A DNA stretch of 64,000 bases from Lachnospiraceae bacterium (GTDB taxonomy: Bacteria > Bacillota > Clostridia > Lachnospirales > Lachnospiraceae): the NCBI GenBank assembly GCA_017940415.1, contig JAGAYR010000021.1, forward strand, positions 1-64,000. The letters run 5' to 3'. Shown in pieces: positions 3,830 to 57,319 of the stretch (its first letter is position 1; the number at the start of each line of letters is the position of its first letter). The notes under the pieces are model-generated. The model saw nothing but the letters and a program-made list of their open reading frames with translations, did not search any database and was not told the DNA's origin. A program made the translations under genes and the position numbers.

Positions 3830-3845
3830 TTTCAATCAGTCAATG

Positions 3846-4835
3846 TTAAACAAGTTCATTTGTTGCATAATCTCTTTCTGCTACAGTCCCGATAATTTCA
3901 TTCCACTTCATAGGAGATAGACCATTTCCCGGACGTTTTGTGGTCAGATTACTTTCAGAAAAAAGCTCACCTCGCTTTATTTCCTTAGAAGTAACAATGC
4001 TCTTTCTAACTATTGCTATATTCTTCTTTTCCGATAGAGAAGGTTCTTTAACTCCCGAGCCAAATGCCTCTTCAACATGCCGAATACTCTCTACCATATT
4101 TCTAAGTTCATCCGGTTCGAGACTAGCCTTATGATCCGGCCCCTCCATTTTTCGATCAAGAGTAAAGTGCTTTTCAATGACAGTAGCCCCCATTGCCACC
4201 GCTGCTATTGGAATTTCTATACCCTTTGTATGATCGGAATAGCCAACCTCTAAGCCCAATTCTCTTCGCATAGATTCCATAGCATTAAGGTTAACATCCT
4301 CAAACGGAGTAGGATATTCCGTATTACACTGTAAGAGTTTGATATCTCCACAGCCATTGCCCTTGAGCACCTCAACCGCCGCGCGGATTTCTTCCATACT
4401 ACACATGCCCGTACTCATTATAACCGGTTTGTGGGTATTAGCCAGGGCTACCAAATACGGATAATTAGTCACCTCGCCGGAAGGAATCTTCCAAAAAGGC
4501 ATATCAATAGAATTAAGAAAGACAATGCTTTCAAGATCAAAAGGCGTAGACAAAAATGAAATCCCTACGCCGTCGCAGTACTTTTTAAGCCCAAGAAATT
4601 CATCATATGATAATTCCAGTTTCTTGAGCATATCCTCCTGAGACCCTTCTCCGGTAGTTTCCTTTTGATAATTCGCTTTCTGGGCATTATTAGACACAAG
4701 ATTCTTTGCCTTGAAGGTCTGAAACTTTACGCAATCTGCCCCCGCCTCTTTTGCAGCATCAACGAGTTTGCATGCCAGTTCAAAGCTTCCGTTATGATTT
4801 ACGCCGGCTTCCGCAATAATGTACGTTTTACCCAT
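3846..4835 (-). CDS. legI: Nonulosonate synthase (probable N,N'-diacetyllegionaminate synthase)
   Basis: 329 residues with the NeuB fold: a TIM barrel (about 1-255) and a C-terminal SAF/antifreeze-like domain (about 270-329). It condenses phosphoenolpyruvate with a 6-carbon amino sugar to make a nonulosonic acid. Motifs seen are IIAEAGVNHNGS, CVKFQTFKA, the LQCNTEYPTP strand and VIEKHFTLDR. The chosen ATG at 4835 has GGAG at good spacing; a GTG six bases upstream would shift the start by two residues. It is co-transcribed with legH upstream and legG downstream, which supplies its acceptor. Sialic acid synthase is the alternative, but the pathway context favours legionaminic acid. Confidence 0.88.
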   Translation of the reverse strand: MGKTYIIAEAGVNHNGSFELACKLVDAAKEAGADCVKFQTFKAKNLVSNNAQKANYQKETTGEGSQEDMLKKLELSYDEFLGLKKYCDGVGISFLSTPFDLESIVFLNSIDMPFWKIPSGEVTNYPYLVALANTHKPVIMSTGMCSMEEIRAAVEVLKGNGCGDIKLLQCNTEYPTPFEDVNLNAMESMRRELGLEVGYSDHTKGIEIPIAAVAMGATVIEKHFTLDRKMEGPDHKASLEPDELRNMVESIRHVEEAFGSGVKEPSLSEKKNIAIVRKSIVTSKEIKRGELFSESNLTTKRPGNGLSPMKWNEIIGTVAERDYATNELV

Positions 4836-5494: not shown

Positions 5495-6550
5495 CTATTC
5501 TCCATACAACTTGATTCTCATTTTTTCCAGTTCCGGAAGTTGCCCCATATCCATCCAATCGCTTTCGCTCACAGGAAAAACTGCCACTTTCTTTCCCTTC
5601 TTACGTTCAAGCTCAATAATGTCCGGGAATCCCATCGGAACTCCATCTCCAATATCATCTATCACTTCAGGCTCGACTATATATATTCCGGTATTCGTCA
5701 GAAATGACATCAATGGTTTTTCACGCATTTCCTTAATGCTTCCGTTAACACCGATATCTACTACACCGTATGGAATATTGATATTCTTATATGCACACAT
5801 CATAGTGATCATATTCTTGTTATCTTTATGAAATTTGATCATACTCTCATAATTCGCGGTAAGAAGTGCATCACAATTTGCAAAAAAGAAAGTACTATCA
5901 AACTTCCCTCGAAGTAAACTTAGACCACCACCGGAGCCCAAAGGCTTATCCTCATCATACCAAGTGATGTTATAATTATTTTCATTATCGGCGAAATACG
6001 CCTTCATAAGATCTTTTTTATAATTGACGATAATATGAAATTCATCACAGGAATATAATAAGTACTCCCTCATAATATGTTCAATGATAGGTAAATCCCC
6101 TACAGGAATGAGAGGCTTAGGAAGAACCTTAGTATACGGATCCAGTCTTGTTCCCTTACCGCCTGCGTTTATCACCACAGGAATATTAAGCGGAGATCTG
6201 TTTTTCTTAATAGACGCCCCCAATTCACCCGTATACAGATCAACCACTACACCATCGTCATCCACTATAGGAATTACAATAAAGTTTTTGTGATGATATA
6301 GGTGTTTGGCTTCCTCCAAAGAATGAGCAGCTTTAGGAGATTTATTGGCCGCATCAAATGCAGTTCCGTTCATTTCTCCACCGGCAAGCAGATAACGTCT
6401 TACATCTCCGTCAGTAACACATCCGACCAGTTTTCCCTGCTCATCTGTCAAGAATAAAATACCGCACGCATTATTATCAATTCTCTGCATTGCTTCAGAG
6501 ACCGATAAATCCTTGCTTCCTATGAATCTTTCAAGTTCGCGGTTATCCAT
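5495..6550 (-). CDS. ptmE: CBS-domain sugar-1-phosphate nucleotidyltransferase (PtmE-like)
   Basis: 351 residues. A CBS pair (about 10-115) is fused to a nucleotidyltransferase domain whose signature NAGGKGTRLDPYTKVLPKPL lies about 128-147. In Campylobacter, PtmE has this architecture and makes GDP-glucosamine for the legionaminic route, so this enzyme probably supplies a GDP-sugar. The CBS pair may bind an adenine nucleotide and regulate the enzyme. The start overlaps the end of legC by eight bases (ATGGATAA), with GAGGAG inside legC at good spacing. A mannose-1-phosphate guanylyltransferase-like role is the main alternative. The nucleotide cannot be proved from sequence, but this fusion next to legB and legC is the best clue that the pathway is legionaminic. 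Confidence 0.82.
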   Translation of the reverse strand: MDNRELERFIGSKDLSVSEAMQRIDNNACGILFLTDEQGKLVGCVTDGDVRRYLLAGGEMNGTAFDAANKSPKAAHSLEEAKHLYHHKNFIVIPIVDDDGVVVDLYTGELGASIKKNRSPLNIPVVINAGGKGTRLDPYTKVLPKPLIPVGDLPIIEHIMREYLLYSCDEFHIIVNYKKDLMKAYFADNENNYNITWYDEDKPLGSGGGLSLLRGKFDSTFFFANCDALLTANYESMIKFHKDNKNMITMMCAYKNINIPYGVVDIGVNGSIKEMREKPLMSFLTNTGIYIVEPEVIDDIGDGVPMGFPDIIELERKKGKKVAVFPVSESDWMDMGQLPELEKMRIKLYGE

Positions 6551-20974: not shown

Positions 20975-21066
20975 CTTATTACCCTCCCGGAAAAATATAT
21001 CATACATTTTACCATATTTTCTTATATTTTCTTACTATAATTTAGTGTATTGACTCGAAAAAGCGC

Positions 21067-52436: not shown

Positions 52437-53177
52437 CTATATCCCGGCTCCGGACGCCAGTGTCATGCAGTACACGCTCTCGGCTCCCGCCTCAAGAAGT
52501 ACTTTGGCACAGGCATCAGTTGTGGCACCTGTTGTATATATATCATCTATCAATAATATACGCTTTGATTTTACTACACTTTGCCCGCTCTTGAAAGCAT
52601 TTTTGAGATTTTTTTGACGCTCCGCGGGGCTCAAAAGCTTCATGGGAGCGGTATTTCTGACCCTTTTCAAAGCTCCCGGATAAAAGGGTATATTTGTCAG
52701 TTTTGAGACCTCGCCTGCGTAGTCTTCAGCCTGATTGTAGCCTCTTTTCAGCATTTTCTTTTTGGAGAGAGGGACGCAGACTATGGCGTCAGGCTTTGTC
52801 ATGGCCAGGTAATCCCCGAGTATCTTAACCGAGCTTTCGGCGAAAAAAGCGGCATATTCACGCCGACCCAGGTATTTGAACCTGTAGACCGGATTGCTTA
52901 TGCAGGGATATTCGAACACACTCCTGCATCTTACAAAAGAATGCTCGTTTCGCTTGCAGTCACCGCATATTCCCTCGCCGAAATTAAGCTTTTTCCCGCA
53001 TTTTTCACACCATGGATATCTGAGCGCCTTTAAGGATCTCAAGCAGTCAAGGCATATCTTTTCTCCGTAAGGCGCGGCATTATCACACACGGGACATCTT
53101 GCGGGATAAACAAGGTCTACCGCCTTAGCGGCCGCACGCTTCAATGAGTCTTTCAGCAAAAGAAGTGTATCTGTCAT
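52437..53177 (-). CDS. comFC: ComFC-like phosphoribosyltransferase-domain protein
   Basis: 246 residues. A zinc-binding region (CPVCDNAAPYGEKICLDC and CEKCGKKLNFGEGICGDC) opens the protein, and the phosphoribosyltransferase domain has the PRPP loop ILLIDDIYTTGATTDA (about 208-223). ComFC/GntX proteins support DNA uptake in naturally competent bacteria, but they are also widespread in non-competent species. The start at 53177 lies 53 bp inside the end of recD2, with GAGAGG five bases upstream. It is followed by yvyF, as in the Bacillus comF-yvyF region; comFA is absent. Confidence 0.88.
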   Translation of the reverse strand: MTDTLLLLKDSLKRAAAKAVDLVYPARCPVCDNAAPYGEKICLDCLRSLKALRYPWCEKCGKKLNFGEGICGDCKRNEHSFVRCRSVFEYPCISNPVYRFKYLGRREYAAFFAESSVKILGDYLAMTKPDAIVCVPLSKKKMLKRGYNQAEDYAGEVSKLTNIPFYPGALKRVRNTAPMKLLSPAERQKNLKNAFKSGQSVVKSKRILLIDDIYTTGATTDACAKVLLEAGAESVYCMTLASGAGI

Positions 53178-55362
53178 TCGAACCTCTCGTATCGGTCATA
53201 CGGTGAATGGTCTGTGAACTTCCGAGAAGCACCACGCAGGACTTGGCCCTGGTGATACCGGTATAAAGCAGGTTCCTGTAAACCAGCGGCATGGGCGGAT
53301 CGAGAACGGGAATGATGACCGCGGGATATTCGCTTCCCTGGGACTTATGGATGGTCATGGCATATGAAAGGTCCAGTTCATCCAGTTCGGAAAAAGAATA
53401 CTTCGCTACTCTTCCGTCATCGAAAAGCACCGTCATTGTTCTGGCAGCTTCATCTATCCTTCTGATGCGGCCCAGGTCTCCGTTAAAAACTCCCGTTCCG
53501 GCCCTCTGAAGAGACTCAAGCCTTTCGTCCGTAGTCCACTCAAGTTTGTAATCGTTCTTGGTCTGCATTACCTTGTCGCCCTCGCGGTAAAGAGTATCTC
53601 CGTAGATATACTCTGCTTTGGTCTGAGCGGGAGGGTTCAGGATCTGCTGCAGGAATCTGTTTAATTCATAAGCGCCCAGCGCACCCTTTTTCATGGGGGT
53701 GAGCACCTGGATATCAAATTTACTGCAATGAATATATGCAGGCAGTTTATCCGAGATCATCCATCCGATGGTCTGTTTGATCACATTTGAATCATCTCTT
53801 TCCAGGAAAATAAAATCCCTTATGGAAGATGAAAGTTCTATATGTTCACCCTTGTCGATCTTGTGGGCGTTGATGACTATATTACTGGTCTCGTCCTGTC
53901 TGAAGATTTTCTCAAGCTTTACCATGGGGAAAGCAGGACAGGAACAAATATCATTTAAGACGCATCCTGGACCGACGCTGGGAAGCTGTGAGGCATCACC
54001 CACAAGTATCAGTCTCGAGGATATGGGAACCGCCGATAAAAGGGCTTTGAACAGCATTATGTCAACCATTGACAATTCGTCAATTATGATAACATCCGCT
54101 TCCAGAGGGTCTTCCGCGTTCTTTTGGAAGATTACGGACTGCCCCGACTCATCAGCCATGGAAGTCACCCCGAGGAGTCTGTGAATGGTGGTAGCCTCGT
54201 ATCCGGTAGCCTCCGTCATCCTCTTGGCAGCTCGTCCCGTGGGTGCCGCAAGAAGGATCTCCAGCCCCTGGTTCATGAAGTAGCCGATGATCATGTTGAT
54301 GGTGGTGGTCTTACCTGTTCCGGGACCTCCGGTCAGAATAAAGAGTCCGTTTTTGATGCACTCTTTTACCGCGTTTACCTGGAGAGGGTCCGTCTGCATG
54401 GCATTGCCCTCTGCAATCTTAACGATATCCCTTTCGATCTTCTCATCAAGTCCGGGGAGATCTTTCATCATGGGGATATTCTTCTCAGCAAGCATCCTGG
54501 CACAGGAAAGCTCGGCGAAATAAAAAGCGGGAAGATAGATCTTATCCTTATCGGTCTTGAGTTTTCCGGCGTGGATAAGCTCTTCCAGTGCGGATTCCAC
54601 ACTTCCGTGTTCGGGCCCCAGAAGCTGCTTTGTGTAGTCTATAAGTATTTCTTTGGGAAGATAGCAATGGCCTTCCGAAGCGCTTTCCGTCAAAGCATAG
54701 GTTATTCCCGCCATGCATCTTTCGGCGCTTCCCGGATCCATTCCCAGTTTGGATGCGATATCATCGGCAGTCTTAAATCCGATGCCTCTCACATCCTCCG
54801 CAAGTTTATAAGGGTTGGTCTTGATCACGGTAATGTAATCGGGACCGTAGTTGTCATATATCTTAACCGCCATGCTCTGGGTGATACCCAGACCGCTCAT
54901 GGCTACCATGGCATCGCGGAGGTCTCTTTTTTCCTCCATTGCGACCGCTATCTCCATGGCTTTTCTCTTACTGATGCCTTTGATCTCCGCAAGGCGCTCG
55001 GGTTCCTCTTCTATGATCCTAAAGGTGTCGTCCCCGAATTTGCTTACGATCTTGGAAGCCAGCTTTTCGCCCACGCCGGATACAGCGCCCGATGCAAGAT
55101 ATCTCTCCATTGCCTGAGAATCCGCGGGAGGAATAATCTTGTAGGACTCGGCCTTGAACTGAATTCCGAATTTGGGATGGTCCACGTACGAGCCGGTAAC
55201 TTCGATGGTGTCGCCTTTTGATACGTCGGGCATCTTACCCACTACCGTCTCATCGGATCCGTCGCAAATAAGAGAGAGGGCTTTATAGCCGTTCTCATGT
55301 TTCTCAAAAAAGACTTTATCGACATAGCCTTTTAAAACATTTTCTTCCTGCGAAAAATCCAA
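53125..55362 (-). CDS. recD2: RecD2-type ATP-dependent DNA helicase
   Basis: 745 residues. Helix-hairpin-helix motifs (about 90-200; VSGVGEKLASKIVSKFG) precede the helicase, with Walker A in LTGGPGTGKTTTIN (about 341), DEAD-box-like IIIDELSMVD, and SMTIHKSQGSEYPAVIIP near the C-terminus. RecD2 works outside RecBCD in replication-fork repair. The start is TTG 55362 with GAGGAG eight bases upstream; no ATG fits better. It overlaps comFC at the 3' end. A large intergenic region with a repeat array lies upstream. Confidence 0.93.
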   Translation of the reverse strand: MDFSQEENVLKGYVDKVFFEKHENGYKALSLICDGSDETVVGKMPDVSKGDTIEVTGSYVDHPKFGIQFKAESYKIIPPADSQAMERYLASGAVSGVGEKLASKIVSKFGDDTFRIIEEEPERLAEIKGISKRKAMEIAVAMEEKRDLRDAMVAMSGLGITQSMAVKIYDNYGPDYITVIKTNPYKLAEDVRGIGFKTADDIASKLGMDPGSAERCMAGITYALTESASEGHCYLPKEILIDYTKQLLGPEHGSVESALEELIHAGKLKTDKDKIYLPAFYFAELSCARMLAEKNIPMMKDLPGLDEKIERDIVKIAEGNAMQTDPLQVNAVKECIKNGLFILTGGPGTGKTTTINMIIGYFMNQGLEILLAAPTGRAAKRMTEATGYEATTIHRLLGVTSMADESGQSVIFQKNAEDPLEADVIIIDELSMVDIMLFKALLSAVPISSRLILVGDASQLPSVGPGCVLNDICSCPAFPMVKLEKIFRQDETSNIVINAHKIDKGEHIELSSSIRDFIFLERDDSNVIKQTIGWMISDKLPAYIHCSKFDIQVLTPMKKGALGAYELNRFLQQILNPPAQTKAEYIYGDTLYREGDKVMQTKNDYKLEWTTDERLESLQRAGTGVFNGDLGRIRRIDEAARTMTVLFDDGRVAKYSFSELDELDLSYAMTIHKSQGSEYPAVIIPVLDPPMPLVYRNLLYTGITRAKSCVVLLGSSQTIHRMTDTRGSNDRYTSFAERLIEACGR

Positions 55363-55595
55363 ACTAAATACTCCTCATGCAAAGTCTGAAACTGTTCTCC
55401 GAATCTTTCAGTCCGAAGCAGAAGGCTTCAAACCATATGCGCGGAATGCGCGAAGTAAGACAAGTTCACTACCTGTCTAGGATATCACTAAGAGGGCAAT
55501 AAGACAAATTAAGGTTATATTAAACCTACTTTAATTCCCTCTTTCTCCCCCGCATGAGAATGGCCCCCTCAAAAGACGGTCTTTTACCTCGGGCA

Positions 55596-55997
55596 GGCTA
55601 TAATTTCGCTCATTTATGAGCTTTTTATAGCCCCAAACCTCCTCAGAAACCGGTTCTTCACTCAAAAAGGCTATAATTTTGCCGTTTTTCGGCACTTTTT
55701 TAGCCCCTGACTTCCTCAGAAGCTTCTTTCCACCTCAAAAAGGCTATAATTTTGCCGTTTTTCGCGAGTTTTTTAGCCCCTGACCACATCTAAATCCATG
55801 TTTTCCCTAGAAAAGGCTATAATTTTGGCTTTTATCTCGATTTTTTTAGCCCCCAGCTTCCTCAGAAGCTAATTTACACACCAAAAAGGCTATAATTTCC
55901 GCGTTTTTCTTGATTTTTTTAGCCCCACCACTTCAAGCCACTGCCATATCCCACAGAAAAGGCTAATAAAGTGGAAGTTTCTGAGGATTTATTAGCC
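55596..55997. repeat. Array of six palindromic modules, exact 73-bp period
   Basis: Within the 724 bp without genes (55363-56086), GGCTA occurs at 55596, 55669, 55742, 55815, 55888 and 55961, each paired with TAGCC so that every module is exactly 37 bp. The intervals are 36 bp. Consensus GGCTATAATTTTGCCG is followed by a variable centre and TTTTTTAGCC. Five of six modules have AAAA or AAAAA just before GGCTA; on the minus strand each therefore reads as a hairpin followed by a T-run. The last module has 10-bp arms (GGCTAATAAA). Intervals share pieces such as CTCAGAA. The rest of the stretch (55363-55595, apart from the recD2 leader) shows nothing else. Confidence 0.8.
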
Positions 55998-56036
55998 CGA
56001 CAAGTCGCCACGGCCGAAAAGATGTGTAAATAGTAA

Positions 56037-56068
56037 TACCCCCGGCGGCGCGAAGCTCGTCGGGGGTA
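56037..56068 (-). terminator. Likely terminator of the flgF-flgG-flgJ operon
   Basis: TACCCCCG (56037-56044) pairs with CGGGGGTA (56061-56068), a GC-rich 8-bp stem with a 16-base loop. On the minus strand TTACTATTT follows. It lies 19 bp after the flgJ-like stop. Confidence 0.55.
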
Positions 56069-56086
56069 CCACATATATGGAATAGT

Positions 56087-56497
56087 TTAGTTGTTTTTAG
56101 GTTTGATGTAGGCCACCTGATCTGCGGGAATTGAATTGGGATCAAGGCCATAGTTTCGGCGAAGCTGCTCGTAAAGCTGCTGAGCAAGTCCGAGGCCGTC
56201 TTTTTCGGTGGACTGCTTCGCAAGTTCCTGGATAGTCTCGCCTTTGAAGAAATCTACAAGATTCTCCGTAGCTGCATCCTTGGAATCATCTCCGTTTCGG
56301 ATAACAGTCTTATCCATATGCTTGAAAACCTGCTCGAGAAGATAACTCTCAAATTGTTTGCATACGGAAAGAAGTTCATCATCGCTGCTCGCATTTTCCG
56401 CTTTGTTTGAAAGTGAATTTGCAAGCTCAGTTGCCTGAGTCTGTCCGGTGACGGAAGTATAGTAATCTGTAAGTGAAGAAATATTGGAAATATCCAT
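56087..56497 (-). CDS. flgJ: FlgJ-like rod-binding protein (without hydrolase domain)
   Basis: 136 residues. The rod-binding domain (about 40-115) has KQFESYLLEQVFKHMDKTV and a later FFKGETIQELAKQ segment, as in the N-terminal part of FlgJ. There is no peptidoglycan hydrolase domain, which is common in Clostridia. It should cap and guide assembly of the flagellar rod. GAGGAG precedes ATG 56497. It follows flgG by three bases in the mbl-flgF-flgG-flgJ operon. Confidence 0.85.
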   Translation of the reverse strand: MDISNISSLTDYYTSVTGQTQATELANSLSNKAENASSDDELLSVCKQFESYLLEQVFKHMDKTVIRNGDDSKDAATENLVDFFKGETIQELAKQSTEKDGLGLAQQLYEQLRRNYGLDPNSIPADQVAYIKPKNN

Positions 56498-56500
56498 TTA

Positions 56501-57319
56501 TTATCTCCTCAGGTTATTAGCCTCTTCAAGCATGGTGTCGGAAGTGGTGATTACTTTGGAGTTGAGCTCGTAAGCTCTCTGGGTTGTGATCATGTTGACC
56601 ATCTCATCGGCAACCTGTACGTTGGAACCTTCGAGATAACCCTGGTTAATGGTACTCTTCTGAAGATTATTGTTGTTATATTCGTTGATTGCTCTTCCGC
56701 TTGCTGCGGTCTCTTTGAAAAGAGTATCGCCTTCGCGGAAAAGACCGTTGGGGTTATTGAACTGCCACAGTCCGATCCTGATGCCCAGCGACTTGGGATT
56801 GTTCTTGTCATCGGGATAGCAGATTTCGCCGTCCTTGGTTACGGTGATAAGACTGGTGGTGTATTTTGAATCAAGAATAATGGGTTTTCCATTGGTATCG
56901 AGAACGGGATTTCCGTCCGATGTAGCAAGCATGTTGCCACCGTTTGATGCAAGAGTCCATCCGAAGTTACCGTTTCTGGTGTAGTAGGTATTTCCGTCGG
57001 CACCTTTGATTCCGTAGAAGCCGTTACCGGAAATAGCAAATGCGGTATCGCTTTCGGAAGCAAAGAAAGCACCCTGTGTAAAGCTGGTGTTAAGAGATGA
57101 AACTCTTGTTCCGAGACCTACCTGTGCACTGCCGGGCTTGGTGTCACCGTTGGCGGAAGTGGTCTTGGTCTGTATTGTCTGATAAAGAAGGTTCTTGAAC
57201 TCAATGCTCTGGGATTTGAATCCGGTGGTATTGACGTTAGCAAGGTTGTTGGCGATATTGTCAAGGCTGGTCTGCTGTGCGAGCATTCCGGTTGCGCCTG
57301 TCCATAAACTTCTGACCAT
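56501..57319 (-). CDS. flgG: Flagellar distal-rod protein FlgG (FlhP-like)
   Basis: 272 residues. N-terminal rod motif MVRSLWTGATGMLAQQTSLDNIANNLANVNTTGFK (shown in part: LDNIANNLANVNTTGF), and C-terminal NVQVADEMVNMITTQRAYELNSKVI. FlgG forms the distal rod of the basal body, secreted through the flagellar apparatus. The first and last 40 residues form the coiled coil. AAGGAGG precedes ATG 57319. FlgG and the upstream FlgF-like protein occupy the positions of FlhP and FlhO in Bacillus. Confidence 0.9.
   Translation of the reverse strand: MVRSLWTGATGMLAQQTSLDNIANNLANVNTTGFKSQSIEFKNLLYQTIQTKTTSANGDTKPGSAQVGLGTRVSSLNTSFTQGAFFASESDTAFAISGNGFYGIKGADGNTYYTRNGNFGWTLASNGGNMLATSDGNPVLDTNGKPIILDSKYTTSLITVTKDGEICYPDDKNNPKSLGIRIGLWQFNNPNGLFREGDTLFKETAASGRAINEYNNNNLQKSTINQGYLEGSNVQVADEMVNMITTQRAYELNSKVITTSDTMLEEANNLRR

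Follow-up and report, generated by a model that had tools for sequence, protein, structure and literature searches.

By analogy, DNA gyrase would be the best-known precedent for an array that wraps DNA. The available excerpts of PMC6379681 describe an E. coli gyrase motif of 130 bp, with a central 36-bp part and flanks that are GC-periodic at 10.75 bp. Excerpts of PMC6379681 and PMC2817692 report that gyrase cleavage sites are enriched in BIME-2, the REP-made mosaic elements of E. coli, and the locus described here shares with BIME-2 an intergenic, tandem arrangement of palindromes at regular spacing. A-tract periodicity is treated as a signal of intrinsic curvature in prokaryotes in the excerpt available from PMC3940949. 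Like nucleosome-positioning and phased A-tract bent DNA, the locus carries A/T tracts at every helical turn. It also resembles a CRISPR array, in that a 37-bp palindromic module plus a 36-bp interval looks like a repeat plus a spacer. Eukaryotic alpha-satellite DNA with CENP-B boxes consists of tandem, locally homogenised monomers that carry a bound motif, and the array is likewise made of tandem, locally homogenised monomers.

The array occupies part of the 724 bp that separate recD2 from a FlgJ-like gene in a 64-kb stretch of DNA (“the window”); both genes are on the minus strand (Table 1). FlgG/FlgF-like, MreB, ComF and YvyF genes were also named in the vicinity. As the initial annotation had described, six GGCTA-N27-TAGCC palindromes of 37 bp each start 73, 73, 73, 73 and 73 bp apart. 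The GGCTA...TAGCC arms that it defined are present, but they extend to 8 bp rather than 5, and the interval too belongs to the unit. All six matches to GGCTA-N{20,32}-TAGCC in the window fall inside the array. Six matches were reached in 0 of 100 shuffles (mean 0.43, largest 3), and a stricter motif allowing at most 3 mismatches matched five times in the window and never in the shuffles, so chance is excluded. TRF gave the array a score of 290 with a period of 73. With both 8-bp arms set aside, agreement among units 1-5 is limited to 25-42 of 57 positions, with zero indels, which bears out the earlier observation that sequence was lost while spacing did not drift. Half-sites fall into two classes, GGCTATAA (T-type) and GGCTAAHA (A-type). 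Modules 2-5 of the window have mismatched arms (GGCTATAA on the left and, by reverse complement, GGCTAAAA on the right) and are an exception within the family described below. The words CCTCAGAA(A/G), in loops or intervals, and CCTCAGTTGC, in intervals, are repeated across several arrays and species (window intervals 55633-55887; loci L003, L087, L112, L118 and L119), and are possibly a second conserved element or a subfamily mark.

Table 1. Features of the window array and its surroundings, and array copies elsewhere in the source genome.
Feature	Position	Strand	Description
Module 1	55596..55632	.	37-bp palindrome, T-type arms GGCTATAA/TTATAGCC
Module 2	55669..55705	.	Hybrid arms: left T-type, right A-type
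Module 3	55742..55778	.	Hybrid arms
Module 4	55815..55851	.	Hybrid arms
Module 5	55888..55924	.	Hybrid arms
Module 6	55961..55997	.	A-type arms GGCTAATA/TATTAGCC
Span with five 36-bp intervals	55633..55960	.	A/T peaks in phase with palindrome A/T peaks
Five intervals	55633-55668, 55706-55741, 55779-55814, 55852-55887, 55925-55960		36 bp each
Highest predicted curvature in the 64-kb window	55557..55776	.	Modelled with a wedge table
Strong hairpin after flgJ	56033..56072	-	z -4.4; kept in P6A3 (G012) and Gw197 (G007); outside array
recD2, one flank of array	53125..55362	-	TIGR01448
FlgJ-like rod-binding protein gene, other flank, end of flagellar genes	56087..56497	-	PF10135
Source genome, six units	C46:197706		Exact 73 bp
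Source genome, two units	C6:7		73 bp
Source genome, four units	C7:42913		73-74 bp; 38-bp palindromes; some arms degenerate
Source genome, one 38-bp palindrome and one half-site	C43:31148
Source genome, one palindrome	C3 near 53326

The array is a member of a dispersed family, for which we found no prior description among the matches listed from the accessible portions of the open-licence PMC literature. The source genome (2.69 Mb, 48 contigs) has further copies, and the search of the genome and its relatives proposed in the initial annotation recovered the module, at unchanged spacing, in dozens of places. A scan of a genome-contig collection for the array pattern returned 90 stretches. Arrays comprise 2-11 units, and the multi-unit ones are nearly all in records named Lachnospiraceae, including P6A3, Gw_SlDig_bin_197 (Gw197), RGIG10136, RUG13451, RUG13935, RUG12797, RUG10588, RM5, XBB2008, RGIG7558, UBA3772 and others. 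Outside these, one array record is named Eubacterium sp. RGIG507 and one is a Treponema MAG (L067). In the set of genomes compared below, P6A3 is G012, Gw197 is G007, RUG13935 is G016 and the source genome is G000; RGIG10136 (G043) and RM5 (G359) were matched through their array sequences. One RM5 array (L131) has five units at 73 bp. The Treponema record carries five T-type palindromes of 36 bp at 5813-6160, spaced 83, 74, 83 and 72; these are close to 8, 7, 8 and 7 turns, which, with four spacings in all, is only suggestive. This is an array in a spirochaete record, or the contig is mis-binned. The remaining hits in other taxa, including L111 (Prevotella) and L129 (Chlorobi), look like chance pairs. 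A phage origin was considered and rejected: the pattern occurs in 7 viral contigs, yet with zero chains of two. Family statistics rest on 254 palindromes in 59 chains; they leave out L067, L131, L111 and L129, count twice the P6A3 arrays split over L072/L082 or two chains (L109), and include 2 of the 4 units on source contig C7. Source contig C6 begins at position 1 inside an array, so assemblies may break at arrays and draft genomes may under-count them.

The geometry of the unit is conserved across the family. When the loci were rescanned less strictly, with palindromes of 33-41 bp allowed and neighbours up to 170 bp apart compared, the starts of 203 of 236 neighbouring pairs were 72-74 bp apart. 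Chain detection tolerated intervals of 33-39 bp and palindromes of 36-39 bp. In the resulting chains, a palindrome length of 37 bp is found in 205 of 254 cases, and intervals are 36 bp in 128 of 155 cases inside the clade of the source genome and in 37 of 40 outside it, the remainder being 35 or 37 bp. The collection scan itself restricted distances, and the cleanest test of geometry is the histogram of all GGCTA[TA][ATC]A half-sites in P6A3 (2.29 Mb; 194 forward, 206 reverse; distances to 400). Between 0 and 60, forward-to-reverse gaps were 21 (70 cases), 22 (3) and 8 (one), and reverse-to-forward gaps were 36 (57), 35 (8), 39 (one) and 60 (one). On P6A3 contigs C1-C3, 89 regex palindromes fall into 13 groups with zero singles, and C3 has none. 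The 73-bp unit consists of inverted 8-bp half-sites, GGCTAWWA, separated by 21 bp and followed by a 36-bp interval, and the same geometry recurs in other Lachnospiraceae genera. This recurrence in relatives, together with loss of sequence without drift of spacing, supports the suggestion of the initial annotation that geometry is under selection, although tandem duplication alone could maintain spacing inside one array.

Base composition follows the same geometry. In profiles to which each array contributed once, A/T maxima lie close to unit positions 8, 19, 30, 40.5, 50, 61 and 70.5, and A or T runs of at least 3 gather at these positions. The intervals, which had no part in array detection, have a cosine component at 10.43 bp with t=-14.3 (54 arrays), maximal near 10-11 bp. 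All 14 chains outside the clade show the phasing (t=-7.5), as do 98% of the 40 chains inside it; flanking DNA, the control, gave t=0.1, and the loops gave t=15.5. The window array has an A/T amplitude at 10.43 bp of 0.139, and none of 1254 other windows across the 64 kb exceeds 0.062. The RM5 array L131 exceeds all 190 other windows of its locus, and the Treponema array is weakly phased, with 4 of 188 other windows equally strong. Curvature was modelled with a wedge table. By this model the window array is predicted to be the most curved stretch of the 64 kb at 73, 146 and 210 bp, and the P6A3 arrays have a median predicted curvature at the 97.6-99.9th percentile. The next most curved 73-bp stretches of the window are predicted at ~21002 and ~448, and positions 21014-21034 are a ATATTTTCTT tandem repeat.

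The arrays therefore carry A/T tracts phased with the helix, as phased curved DNA does. Because this phasing of about 10.4 bp runs through both loops and intervals, the constraint acts on double-stranded DNA. It also makes the unit about seven helical turns, so that half-sites recur on one face, in agreement with the earlier proposal that 73 bp places all modules on the same side of the DNA. Of the functions first suggested for the block, a protein-binding array is the best reading of the sequence, and a unit of about seven turns agrees with the 10.4-bp A/T phasing. In its specific form, we judge it about evenly balanced whether the block is a cis-acting scaffold of double-stranded DNA, made of tandem sites at which a dimeric, sequence-specific protein would bind and bend or wrap the DNA. 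One dimer would occupy each palindrome, dimers would assemble cooperatively along the curved DNA, and the array may insulate transcription units topologically from one another or anchor a domain between them.

The initial annotation had also offered tandem terminators and small RNAs, having read five of the six modules as a weak hairpin followed by a T-run on the minus strand. On that strand, better folding than in shuffled sequence is confined to modules 1 and 2 (z -3.5 and -3.8). Their folding favours an RNA role (as terminators, mRNA-end hairpins or small RNAs), as does the scarcity of arrays between divergent genes: for 46 of the 59 chains with mechanically called ORFs on both sides (13 lack a neighbour on one side inside the locus), the neighbours are codirectional in 35, convergent in 7 and divergent in 4. 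Against an RNA role, modules 3-6 fold at shuffle level, and mismatches in transcript sense in 136 palindromes are G.U in 19 cases versus A.C in 16, with no strand bias. A terminator scan of 55300-56300 gave 2 hits, both on the plus strand, versus 1.4 expected, and 0 on the minus strand. Rfam returned 0 matches at E<=5 across 54900-56600. The hairpins that follow flgJ and pnp are conserved and lie outside the arrays, and at both the recD2 and pnp sites the array comes after the upstream gene's own hairpin. Moreover, helical phasing has no reason to exist in RNA. Neither the terminator nor the small-RNA proposal is supported by these comparisons, and we consider an RNA role very unlikely.

The arms vary in a coordinated way. 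Arm-to-arm Watson-Crick matching is 0.99 at position 6 (null 0.50; 250 of 254 palindromes) and 0.84 at position 7 (null 0.48). From position 9 inwards there is no excess, and positions 13, 15 and 18 are under chance. Palindromes are homotypic in 250 of 254 cases, the four exceptions being window modules 2-5. Arm matching can also be read as stem pairing, which counts against a code read by protein; the variation at position 7 on either side of A-type palindromes speaks against stem pairing being the only constraint. Codes differ between lineages: T in RGIG10136 (25/25) and RM5 (10/10), A in Gw197 (49/49) and RUG13935 (8/8), and both in P6A3 (53 A and 49 T). A third code, GGCTGTAA (G), has 32 pattern matches in RGIG10136, both strands counted, and zero in the other 30 genus genomes. 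The one alternative arm code for which array-less relatives were checked was GGCTGNA.

Codes are arranged in blocks within arrays. On P6A3 C1 and C2, 10 of 13 arrays are mixed, with exactly one A/T switch in each, and the pnp site of RGIG10136 has three G units, one hybrid and four T units, all 73 bp apart. At that site (L348, contig C109) one unit of the T block is altered at position 4 in both arms, to different bases (GGCAATAA and, by reverse complement, GGCGATAA), and the unit at the G/T junction is the hybrid. Along the plus strand of the contig, nine of the 10 mixed P6A3 arrays run from A to T, whichever strand the genes are on and whatever the GC skew. A replication-linked polarity was rejected, as the order does not track GC skew: on C1, with negative skew, 7 of 7 mixed arrays read A-to-T, and on C2 two with positive skew read A-to-T and one with negative skew reads T-to-A. 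Two readers, each with its own half-site preference, would explain the codes best, with reader specificities co-evolving with the arm code; local tandem duplication accounts for the A/T blocks equally well.

The pattern occurs in 5 of 31 genomes of the genus. These five form one clade, in which the pnp-adjacent DUF5685 protein has 89-91% identity, versus at most 75% for the others. Across an order sample of 392 genomes, which includes only 3 genus genomes, the T-type pattern was found in 3 (source, P6A3 and RM5). Given this rarity and patchiness, the family is dispensable. At the recD2 site the array, which adjoins the conserved hairpin after flgJ, has 6 units in the source genome, 11 in P6A3 and 3 in Gw197. 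A full recD2 was not found in RUG13935, and in the array-less G001 the gap at this site is just a few bases. Similarity between intervals at the site is weak (source versus P6A3, 15.2/36 against 10.9 shuffled, best 23; source versus Gw197, 13.0 against 10.7 shuffled). The pnp-DUF5685 site has arrays in 3 of 5 clade members and one lone palindrome in Gw197; in RUG13935 this site measures 66 bp and an array is absent. In eight array-less sisters (G018, G044, G040, G001, G021, G004, G010 and G046; G019, G023 and distant genomes were left out) the pnp gap is 65-245 bp. From the array-less sisters and the shared but variable orthologous sites, we infer that arrays were probably gained in this clade, inherited, and are turning over. 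In RUG13451 and RGIG507 (L074 and L089), the ends of T-type arrays overlap a mechanical ORF by about 50-110 bp; homology of the nuclease-like ORF of L074 to P6A3 begins outside the array.

This distribution also bears on gyrase. The arrays might be BIME-2-like gyrase sites whose phased A/T wings wrap on GyrA, forming a strong, transcription-independent gyrase sink, and the 10.75-bp periodicity of the E. coli motif in the excerpts of PMC6379681 compares with a phasing of 10.4 bp in the 73-bp unit here. However, base-specific 8-bp arms and lineage-specific codes would not be expected of gyrase. The arrays are also absent, by pattern, from most relatives, and most array-less relatives should have gyrase too. 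We regard gyrase sites as improbable.

One protein stands beside arrays in distant records. The gene next to the Treponema array (L067:4903-5721, 273 aa) is 33% identical (E 1e-33) to P6A3 C1:589476-590420 (314 aa). The P6A3 gene ends 6 bp from one array, and a second array flanks comEC (PF03772), its upstream neighbour. Relatives adjoin comEC and an array in RUG13451, RGIG507 and Gw197, with a fragment in RUG10588. In Lachnospiraceae the link could simply reflect a long-standing common gene neighbourhood around comEC; within the 8 kb read, no comEC accompanies the Treponema pair. The family matches no Pfam or NCBIfam family. Its invariant RVRSKSE, PDF and EH motifs, the match of its C-terminal part to the C-terminal end of PADLOC PDC-S68 (E 9e-29; weakly, 0.002, to HEAT_CxxC_PD-DEXK) and the order of its secondary-structure elements suggest a PD-(D/E)XK-like C-terminal domain. 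The structure model has low confidence (pLDDT 61), and a fold search with it gave no PDB match at E<=0.001, the weak entries including restriction-endonuclease-like ones. From its position we consider this nuclease-like protein a candidate reader and the best lead. It is the sole copy among the ORFs of P6A3 C1-C3 (76% of P6A3), and one copy in that portion does not alone explain two codes. Gut Firmicutes commonly encode nuclease-like proteins of this sort, a circumstance that would make the link with arrays less telling.

No relatives of the nuclease-like protein were confirmed in the viral contig collection. Part of the C-terminal domain occurs in 8 plasmid records, six annotated as AAA family ATPase and one as RecD-like helicase. 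Relatives also occur in 3 short “Bacteriophage sp.” records, in which a scripted scan found no palindrome array of the GGCTA type or of any other regular kind. In L374 (MT839528.1, human faecal), positions 3843-4205, downstream of a gene distantly related to the nuclease-like one, hold nine GTTGC/GCAAC words in 370 bp at irregular spacing, which may be an array that uses a different arm code. Among other possible readers, HU, Lrp, Y1 and one HTH family show no co-variation with arrays. HU has 3, 2, 3, 1 and 4 copies in array-bearing genomes versus 1-4 in array-less ones, fragments included; Lrp/AsnC has one copy in 11 of 12 genomes, arrays or not; and a small HTH family (three P6A3 copies) is present with and without arrays. 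Judged by eye, the list of P6A3 C1-C3 paralogues offered no clear reader, and the neighbours of P6A3 arrays included no recurrent DNA-binding protein except the nuclease-like one.

Alternatively, the arrays could be selfish: a repeat of 73 bp would establish itself at intergenic sites and expand through tandem duplication with no host function, perhaps driven in a homing-like way by the nuclease-like protein, which is encoded beside arrays in P6A3, Gw197, RUG13451, RGIG507 and the Treponema record (and as the RUG10588 fragment). Units are often near-identical within an array (C46, P6A3 C1:679k), the A/T blocks resemble local duplication, and copy number varies at orthologous sites (6, 11 and 3), all of which fit such an element. 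On the other hand, arrays from different genera retain the same spacing and A/T phase, the arms are kept while the rest of the unit falls to 25-42/57, and in 13 P6A3 C1/C2 arrays a single interior unit (C1:590499, position 8) fails stricter half-site scoring. We therefore consider a purely selfish repeat unlikely.

Extending the scaffold reading, we tentatively propose, as a possibility well short of even, that the arrays form a bacterial, satellite-like, rewritable address code, in which homodimeric readers of the T, A and G codes bind phased, curved arrays. Each lineage would use one or two codes, and a long array could consist of two blocks (A|T or G|T), in some cases joined by a hybrid palindrome. 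A change in the readers would go along with a change at dozens of sites, without any alteration of the 73-bp architecture. The nuclease-like protein beside the arrays, encoded next to comEC in Lachnospiraceae and without comEC in Treponema, may be such a reader, acting as a chromosome-marking or anchoring protein.

If the scaffold reading is true, this would be a natural bacterial DNA-wrapping array that unites base-specific half-sites with nucleosome-like phasing and is readable from sequence alone. Chromosome organisation by intergenic repeat arrays would become a testable question, for which one candidate reader protein is now at hand, and close relatives hold natural controls: arrays of 2-11 units, arrays whose codes are A-only, T-only or mixed, and orthologous sites that lack an array.

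Among known systems, REP/REPIN-like hairpins, which a RAYT (Y1) transposase mobilises in single-stranded form, are likewise intergenic, palindromic and dispersed, and the matched arm variants recall the “alternative complementary stem residues” of GTAG REPs in the available part of PMC3733652. Membership in the REP/RAYT group fails on both transposase association and tag. Y1 (PF01797) was found in P6A3 and RGIG10136 and in 7 of 26 array-less genomes, and not in the other three array-bearing genomes, G000, G007 and G016, which are 84, 90 and 80% complete. The GTAG/CGTC tag is absent from the symmetrised logo of the 205 37-bp palindromes, which consists of GGCTAWWA arms with at most 0.31 bits at the adjoining four interval positions. 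Pairing that ends at 8 bp around a 21-nt loop also speaks against such hairpins, which leave the A/T phasing unexplained, and we think them most unlikely here. The arrays differ from BIME-2 in the same respects, lacking a GTAG-tagged REP and a consistent Y1/RAYT gene, and in having 8-bp arms, a 21-nt loop, a 36-bp interval, continuous 10.4-bp A/T phasing and lineage-specific arm codes. The arrays also differ from a CRISPR array: only the 8-bp arms are constant, the centres and intervals diverge together, and intervals repeat within an array, whereas CRISPR spacers are unique. In contrast to alpha-satellite DNA, the arrays are bacterial, short (2-11 units found) and spread over many loci, and their reader is only putative. 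Finally, unlike nucleosome-positioning or A-tract bent DNA, the phasing here is locked to base-specific palindromic half-sites in discrete arrays.
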